From NCBI RefSeq assembly GCF_000003815.2, contig NC_049994.1, positions 6,418,858 to 6,482,857 on the forward strand: a DNA stretch of 64,000 nucleotides. Reading direction: 5' to 3'. Under the pieces are notes generated by a model, which saw only the letters and a list, made by a program, of their open reading frames with translations, was not told where the DNA came from and did not search any database. Each line of letters begins with the position of its first letter. The stretch's first letter is position 1. Origin of the DNA: Branchiostoma floridae. Its lineage: Eukaryota > Chordata > Leptocardii > Amphioxiformes > Branchiostomatidae. Shown in pieces: positions 2,113 through 5,100 of the stretch. A program made the position numbers and the translations under genes.

Positions 2113-5100
2113 GTGTCAGAGGTGATCTTCAACAATATTGAAGAGAAAGAGACACTCTTGGACTACGTACAACGACTTAAGAAGGTGAGTAAAGTCCAAG
2201 CCACTGTGCTACCAGCTAATGCTGCATCCATTACAAATATGAACTTATGTTCTCTTTTGCAGAATCATTTGCCAGTAAAGAACGATTGTCTTTCTAGTAT
2301 TTGTAATGTTTCTGCTTCTTTTTCTTTCTTTCTTTCTTTCTTTCTTTCTTTCTTTCTTTCTTTCTTTCTTTCTTTCTTTCTTTCTTTCTTTCTTTCTTTC
2401 TTTCTTTCTTTCTTTCTTTCTTTCTTTCTTTCTTTCTTTCTTTCTTTCTTTCTTTCTTTCTTTCTTATTCTTTCTTAGAATGGGCCAATGCCCCCAGCGA
2501 TTTTTTTTGTTTCAATTCTATTATATCTGCCTTTGAAATGATTTTATTGAGTTTGGGGGCAATTCTTAGACCAAAACTGTATATCTAACTGCATGTTATT
2601 TGCCCCCAGCATGTGCCCTGGTGTTATTATAACCGAATGTGTATGTGTACCAATGTAATGTATATGTTTTAATGTATGACCCCAGGAAGAGTAGTGGATG
2701 CACATGTGTATTCACTAATTGGTGTCATTTTAACAATAAACAATAAACAATGACCTGAAATTTGGTTCAAATGCCCATATAGATTCAATAGCACTTTTGG
2801 CATACAGTGCAACAAAATCTAAAACTTTGCGATTTTTGCCAGATTTCGACAAAAAGGTACGTTTTTTGCTCCTGTACCTGGTTTACAACCAAATGACCTG
2901 AAATTTGGTATAGGATTGTCCTTTTTATATGCGTACATGGATTTATGACTGAATGACAGTGTGTTCTATTTCCTTGTTCTTTTAGGTGGTTGCTGACCAC
3001 AACATCAACATCATTCTCCCCACCGGCATCGACCTGACTACGTTCGTACATGCCGCCATTGCCAGGGACTTTCCGCACATCCCCGGACCCAGTGTTGAGT
3101 CCTGCTACCTGGCTTTCCACAAAGCCTACTCACGGCAGTACCTGGACCCCACTGAGAACCCAACCCCCTACGATGTAGTGGATATGGATTCACCAACCAT
3201 GCTGGAGGATGCACAGCGGGCCTTGGAAAAAGTCGGTAAGAAAAACGACTATAGTCACATTTCCAAGCCGGGGACCGAATGAGCAGCTTTCGAGAATGAA
3301 AAGTATGATATAAAAGACAACAAATTACTCTCCAAGCAGAGGTTGGTGGGAAAAATCGTGACCTTTTCCTTTCAAGGGTTCTCAGTGGGGTCCAGGTACT
3401 GCCGTGAGTAGGCTTTGTGGAAAGCCAGGTAGCAGGACTCTCCACTGGGTCCGGGGATGTGCGGAAAAGGTCACGATTTTCCCACCACCGCCTGCTTGGA
3501 GAGTAGCAACAAACACAAGACGTAAAGAGAATAGTCGTGGGCATTATCTGTGAATTTTTTACGTAAACATGTCTATTCTTCGTTTCCACAAACAGCCCGG
3601 CCGGGGCCCGGTTTGGAAATGTGACCTCACCTTAGCCTAAGTAGGATCATGGCATCAGGGGAGAATAATGAGTGGAAACCTCACCTATACAAAATGCAAT
3701 GACAAGCTATGAACATGATCAATAACAATTTTCATGAGTGTAATTATCAAGCATTTCAAAGTTTATATTGATGAATGTGTCTGGATCCATATAGAGAACA
3801 CAAGCGTTAAGCAGCATGGGTTGCATAGTCTCTATTATTGAAACAGTAAAGGCTTTTTGCATCCTCCCAGGTCTACCAGCATTCGTAAAACCTGGAGCAG
3901 GGTTTGGTACGTTTGGTGTGACTAAGGTGGAAAATTTTGAAGACATGAAACGGGCCCTGCAGAACCTTCGGACAATGCGGGATGAACATCCTGACTTCCT
4001 GGCATCACCATGCGCTGCTTTCTTCAAGTAAGCCGTTATTACATTTTGTAATTATAGTCTAGCTGCTTCTGGCCATTCTCCTACGCAGAGACATCCAACG
4101 GCGCCAGCAAACCGGCTCCTGTCAGTACTCTGCTATCTCAACCGTCACCATCAGTTCCTGACCGCCCTGCTCATTAATGAGCTTACCCTTATATATGCGA
4201 GATCCCTTTTGAAAATTGAAAGGCCTAGTCTCTGATTGGCTTACAGCTGAGTTGTGGCCACACTCACAGGAACTGATGGTGACGGTTGAGATAGCAGAGA
4301 ACAAACAAGGGACGGTTTGCTGTGGCCGTTGGGTGTCTCTGCATATAAGAATGCTCCTGGCATTGAATGTTGCCCTGATACTCTGCATTAGCAGACAGTA
4401 TTTCCTTGACAAAAGTAAGCAATTCTAACTTGCTATTATATCTTGCTCCTTTCATCCCAGATCCCCAAGTACATTGACTGAACTGTCACTCAAACTTTTC
4501 CAACTAGGGATTATTTCAAGGAATATCTGGACGTGGAGAAGTACCCGCTCGCCCTTCGAGATGTTGTGATCGTGGAACCTTACTTGGATGCAGAGGCCCT
4601 CTATTGTGTGGATGGATGCATTGTGGACAAAGAGATTGTTCAATGGACAGTCAGTATCATTCTCCTACGCAGAGACATCCAACGGCGCCAACAAGCCGCC
4701 TCTTGTCTGTACTCTGCTATCTCAACCGTCACCATCAGTTCCAAACCGCCTTGCTTATAAATATTAATGAGCTTATATGCAAGGTACCTTTTGAAAACTG
4801 AAACACCTATTCGCTGATTGGCTGACAGCTGATTTGTGGCGACGCCCGCAGGAACTGATGGTGACGGTTGAGATAGCAGAGTACAGACAAGAGACGGTTT
4901 GCTAGCGCCGTTGGATGTCTCTGCGTAGGAGAATGGTAATATAGAAACCAGCCAAAGCTAAACTTTCCGATTGATCGAATTACATGCCTATACTAGCATG
5001 GGAACCACCTTAGTTTTCCACTTATATTATGTACATGTCTAGCTAGGATTATACCCTCCAGGTACCAGAATTCGAAGTCACAACTTACTTTTTCTGGATC

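Follow-up and report, generated by a model that had tools for sequence, protein, structure and literature searches.

Host gene, nested MITEs and an inverted exon copy

The window, by which we mean the whole 64,000-nucleotide stretch of Branchiostoma floridae DNA analysed here, carries exons 2 to 8 of a gene whose exon 1, with its ATG, is in L039, some 2.9 kb upstream of where the window starts. Exons 2 to 8 join into one open frame with a stop at its end, and together with the upstream exon 1 this leaves a pseudogene reading unsupported; two alternative ends tried for exon 7 lead to stops. The product has modest Pfam matches to ATP-grasp and D-Ala ligase families, exceeding the cut-offs by 1.7 bits (PF13535) and 5.5 bits (PF07478), and its best match among solved structures has an E of 0.02, for which reasons we leave the enzyme at “ATP-grasp-like”. 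The gene has a close paralogue on C18 that shares its exon plan, and a blastn comparison of the matching intron there with the MITEs described below found nothing at E 1e-5. The stretch 2967-3246, exon 3 with its edges, is 96% identical to this paralogue and the other exons 83-94%, which could reflect gene conversion or constraint. Two minor features of neighbouring parts of the gene are a long TTTC array in intron 2 (2317-2470) and another MITE, two copies of which flank exon 5 (4073-4360 and 4652-4938), the second beginning a few bases beyond that exon’s gtcagt donor; complementarity between the arms at 4073-4160 and 4849-4936 reaches 95%, and exon 5 could therefore be placed in a loop.

Intron 3 holds a palindromic element of 180 bp (3326-3505, arms of 49 and 43 nt) which interrupts a second one (3256-3624) and whose middle has been replaced by a copy of exon sequence. 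The nesting had been proposed in a first-pass annotation of this DNA, with the inner element ending at 3506; the two belong to separate repeat families, and the inner end falls at 3505. The inner element is short, has terminal inverted repeats and is present in many copies, as befits a MITE: the first 38 nt of its left arm match 454 places in the genome with up to 3 mismatches, and the reversed control matches none. Against these 454 arm matches we examined 66 other copies, 39 of them two-ended (22 + 17) and 27 one-armed (10 + 17), a non-random sample of top-scoring or exact matches in which L051b was met in a flank and L019 and L020 seem to be one insertion seen twice. A target-site duplication of 8-9 bp, counted when at least 8/9 or 8/8 positions were identical, accompanies 27 of the 39 two-ended copies (16/22 and 11/17) and is lacking in 12. 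Judged solely by the length of these duplications, the inner element would most likely be Mutator-like: PMC6446971 gives 8 bp for Spectre and 9 for Rehavkus, and also casts doubt on previous reports of these elements in B. floridae. Elsewhere in the window, at 58613-58748, another short element has the same terminal sequence as the inner MITE (TACTCTCCAAGCAG, with one mismatch on the right), and inspection by eye shows a perfect duplication of 9 bp (CACAGTACC).

The exon copy and its source in exon 3 form an inverted pair of 92 nt, complementary at 90 positions and separated by a spacer of 214 nt. The two mismatches lie side by side (exon TT against insert TC at 3441-3442, which is GA in exon sense), leaving 65 nt as the longest perfect stretch, and similarity ends immediately outside the pair on either side. 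At an E of 5.2e-37 in a genome of 513 Mb (431 contigs), the match between insert and adjacent exon 3 is far past chance. An inverted copy of the neighbouring exon had been noted before, as 3376-3466 against 3071-3161 with 89 of 91 matches, and this was correct within one base; the alignment gave 98% identity, not one far below about 90%. The inverted exon copy in the intronic MITE is real and well delimited, an unusual combination of ordinary parts. Among the titles and abstract openings listed from the open-licence PMC literature, none describes such an exon copy within a MITE. The insert at 3437-3444, through its private change, reads ACTCTCCA, eight bases identical to those that follow the first T of the MITE arm, which may be chance. 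The coordinates of all features are collected in Table 1.

Table 1. Positions of the host-gene exons, the nested MITEs and the inverted exon pair within the window.
Feature	Position	Strand	Remarks
Exon 2, ATP-grasp-like gene	2113-2184		open frame with other exons
Exon 3, ATP-grasp-like gene	2986-3235	+	ttttag before, gtaaga after; 96.4% to exon 3 of paralogue L009 (C18)
Exon 4, ATP-grasp-like gene	3871-4027		open frame with other exons
Exon 5, ATP-grasp-like gene	4508-4649		open frame with other exons
Exon 6, ATP-grasp-like gene	5536-5724		open frame with other exons
Exon 7, ATP-grasp-like gene	6554-6766		open frame with other exons
Exon 8, ATP-grasp-like gene	8039-8263		open frame with other exons
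Source arm (coding stretch duplicated in the MITE)	3070-3161	+	90/92 complementary to 3376-3467
Exon TT, GA in the insert in exon sense	3095-3096	+	GA in 0/7 paralogous exons (TT in 6, TG in L027)
Outer MITE, left part	3256-3328	+	other genomic copies match query 1-73; fewer than for right part
Left target-site duplication ACAACAAAT	3317-3325	+	7/9 to right one
Left arm, inner MITE	3326-3374	+	49 nt; 100% to many genomic copies
Single base, left junction	3375	+	by eye, in neither family core (T) nor exon flank (T)
Inverted exon copy within inner MITE	3376-3467	-	from pair alignment; no other MITE found with this core
Junction microhomology GGAAA	3463-3467	+	5 nt, common to exon end and right arm
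Right arm, inner MITE	3463-3505	-	40/44 aligned positions to left arm
Right target-site duplication GCAACAAAC	3506-3514	+	7/9 to left one
Outer MITE, right part	3513-3624	+	87-94% to 38 other places among 40 candidates scored, at about query 258-369

Donor and junctions of the copied core

Of the 92 positions, the insert departs from the adjacent exon at 2 and from seven paralogous exons at 5, 6, 7, 13, 14, 15 and 20. At position 87 of 92, the insert and the adjacent exon have G and all seven paralogous exons have A; since this G is common to the insert and its neighbour and occurs in none of the paralogues, the adjacent exon is taken as the donor and a paralogue is ruled out. Neither the adjacent exon nor any of the seven paralogous ones shares the insert’s change from TT to GA.

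When the genome was searched with the core’s inner 64 nt, eight places matched, and the eight candidates scored were the insert itself, the adjacent exon and six paralogous exons. This assembly-wide search found no second MITE with the exon core, a miss which should not be read as proof of rarity. The usual family core, by comparison, is recognisable in 35 of the 39 other two-ended copies (BLAST E up to 0.1; weakly in some, such as L046, L069 and L086) and was not found in the window copy, where the exon copy stands in its place. The four copies without a recognisable family core are L051b, L066, L079 and L090, the last two with cores of just 14 and 11 nt. The possibility that many genomic copies would reveal the exon core as an old family core, which the first-pass annotation had raised against its own reading, is thereby ruled out: the search found none in other MITEs, which mostly carry a different core. 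Derivation of the exon from the MITE is ruled out as well, since all seven paralogous loci have exon 3 without a stop (84-residue query, residues 1-84 covered, 2-84 in L014).

The two junctions of the insert are not alike. On the right, the exon end and the MITE arm have five nucleotides in common, and on the left no clear microhomology was found, one base remaining unexplained (Table 1). Across the left junction, at 3360-3410, MITE arm and antisense exon together form what look by eye like splice motifs (ttttcctttcaag/GG, ttctcag/TG and GTGAGT); these are not seen in the usual family core and could mark a cryptic exon.

Origin of the copy and possible recurrence in the MITE family

We consider it likely that the insert arose by local template switching or templated repair within a MITE already present in the intron, rather than by Pack-type capture followed by jumping. 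The locus has the features of a template switch, namely an inverted copy of nearby sequence with its source retained, the family core serving as a stand-in for the unswitched ancestor. An in-place switch is the simpler account because the core was found in one MITE, the donor lies 214 nt away and a junction shows microhomology. In the order of events that we infer, the short palindromic MITE, with target-site duplications of 8-9 bp, would have entered intron 3 first, inside the older MITE, and the capture would have come afterwards. The palindrome may have acted as a weak point, the trigger being a fork that stalled, or a break that opened, at its hairpin. Repair by an inverted template switch would then have let a strand ending in the arm (...CCTTTTCC) pair through 5 nt with exon TTTCC, a polarity that is itself presumed, and copy about 92 nt of exon; joining of the copied strand to the other arm would have replaced the AT-rich centre and left the source exon intact. 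The capture was probably recent.

The short-range template-switch mutations described under the four-point model (PMC7954356, PMC8794818) are likewise reverse-complement copies from within hundreds of nucleotides that create a hairpin in one event, but here the copy lies within a MITE whose centre was lost. Its length also speaks against a template switch: 92 nt is long for such an event and near the top of the range reported for gold-standard cases in great apes, with a median of 12 nt and a maximum of 128 (PMC7954356). Templated inverted insertions at double-strand breaks, as presented in PMC11724301, resemble the present case in being inverted and in having microhomology on one side, with end joining proposed for the other; they differ in being mostly about 5-34 bp and in having been studied in yeast. 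The left junction without clear microhomology counts against the switch too, as does the prospect that an older capture was homogenised by gene conversion between the arms.

In the foremost alternative, Pack-type transduplication, a MITE elsewhere would have taken up the exon piece and then moved, by transposition or a local hop, into intron 3 of that exon’s own gene. A chimera with both arms and a 7/9 duplication could indeed be a transposed unit, and MULE-like elements tend to acquire fragments of host genes (PMC6446971). However, one MITE alone was found with the exon core, the donor is the exon 214 nt off and none of the seven paralogues elsewhere, and landing by chance beside the donor would be improbable unless local hopping were strong. 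Of the Pack-MITE capture suggested in the first-pass annotation, the host gene fragment between terminal repeats therefore stands and its mobilisation does not, and we regard this route as unlikely. Host coding sequence inside a DNA transposon with terminal inverted repeats is also the arrangement reported for Pack-TYPE elements in plants (PMC8903248) and for Turmoil-1 in C. elegans (PMC2572040); here, in contrast, the fragment gives no sign of mobility, and it comes from the adjacent exon of the gene that holds it, copied in inverted orientation. PMC2572040 states, as of 2008, that plants commonly show transduplication and that no animal case was known until Turmoil-1. The capture proposed for plant Pack-TYPE elements, through tandem insertions and re-mobilisation (PMC8903248), does not as given there account for an inverted copy lying 214 nt away from its donor.

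Inverted repeats are able to convert each other, and an old capture might have been kept alike in this way. Differences number 4 in the 44 aligned positions of the right arm and 2 in the 9 of the duplications, against just 2 of 92 in the core. Yet the left arm differs from its family at 0 of 49 positions, the sites are too few to separate rates, and the two core differences are adjacent and perhaps one event, so that we hold this explanation to be improbable; with so few sites (4/44, 2/9, 0/49, 2/92), the order of events is not datable. An assembly or library artefact is very improbable: some other copies of the inner MITE hold N runs that may be assembly gaps, and palindromes may be hard to assemble, but the insert sits exactly between the MITE arms, with private bases, a spacer and no N around it, and artefactual palindromes usually abut their source.

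The value of the locus is that donor, acceptor and junctions can all be read in one place, and it sets a local template switch apart from Pack-type capture. The birth of intronic sequences complementary to an exon is seldom caught near its moment, and this locus looks fresh.

The more general proposal, that hairpin MITEs in this genome repeatedly acquire inverted copies of their own flanks in place, and so provide a route to editing-complementary or self-silencing sequences, we regard as doubtful. If true, an intronic MITE could in one step give a neighbouring exon the capacity to form a long self-complementary RNA. Among the 39 two-ended copies, one has a match above 50 bits to its own flank (L066, 33/35 nt, inverted). 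This possible second local inverted copy (L066 925-1159) consists of a piece of the downstream flank within a MITE of the same family with an 8/8 duplication, and the L066 core matched the local copy only, from a single candidate. In a control comprising 39 items (window included, L020 omitted, flanks of 650 nt), 1482 pairings of a core with the flanks of another locus yielded 244 matches. The best 25 of these 244 all involve either the flank of L051, which holds another copy of the MITE, or the core of L086, which seems to hold another repeat; some of these 25 exceed the 55.4 bits of L066, and none the 149 bits of the window. The L066 match is weak because its flank is a repeat (about 40 scored copies), an N run adjoins the match and some unrelated pairs of core and flank score as high through repeats that they share; as a second case it is suggestive only and should be interpreted with caution. 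Weaker own-flank matches, of up to 24 nt, occur in L040 (where the match overlaps another copy of the family), L058, L060, L069 and L084.

Among the 27 one-armed copies, no inverted flank copies were found outside the array in which L071 lies. Short direct matches of 15-54 nt are present in L054, L055, L072, L073 and L075, and in L059 (2400-2760) and L081 (394-930) truncated MITEs are followed by direct copies of the left flank (82% and 92%). Tandem repeats account at least as well for such direct flank copies.

Predicted pairing in the pre-mRNA

With 92 nt of the exon repeated in inverted orientation in the intron, the unspliced transcript is able to fold back on itself, pairing almost perfectly across the central part of exon 3. 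The long exon/intron duplex expected in the first-pass annotation does form in silico, the minimum-energy fold of 2986-3624 having 90 exon:insert pairs and no arm:arm pairs. The calculated duplex energies are -203.9 kcal/mol for exon and insert and -72.1 kcal/mol for the MITE arms, and the two helices are mutually exclusive in a pseudoknot-free fold. The same annotation had supposed that the duplex could hide the splice donor; this is unsupported, since the donor at 3236 falls within the 214-nt loop, outside the paired arm. The ADAR, Dicer and antisense effects that it also suggested are predictions.

Because the exon/insert duplex beats the element’s own hairpin in these calculations, the insert looks like a candidate for a newly arisen ADAR editing-complementary sequence. 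As summarised in PMC10404624, ADAR coding sites usually lie in a duplex formed within one exon or between an exon and a complementary sequence of the adjacent intron. The GluA2 Q/R site treated there likewise depends on a downstream-intron sequence complementary to the coding exon; the present pairing differs in being near-perfect and 92 nt long, and in being predicted from sequence. We think that the insert is probably neutral or mildly harmful rather than selected. From a near-perfect duplex of 92 nt, promiscuous ADAR editing would be expected and not the editing of one site. Of the 19 adenosines in the source arm, 16 lie where editing would alter an amino acid, and the duplex predicts A-to-G changes in RNA over 3070-3161.
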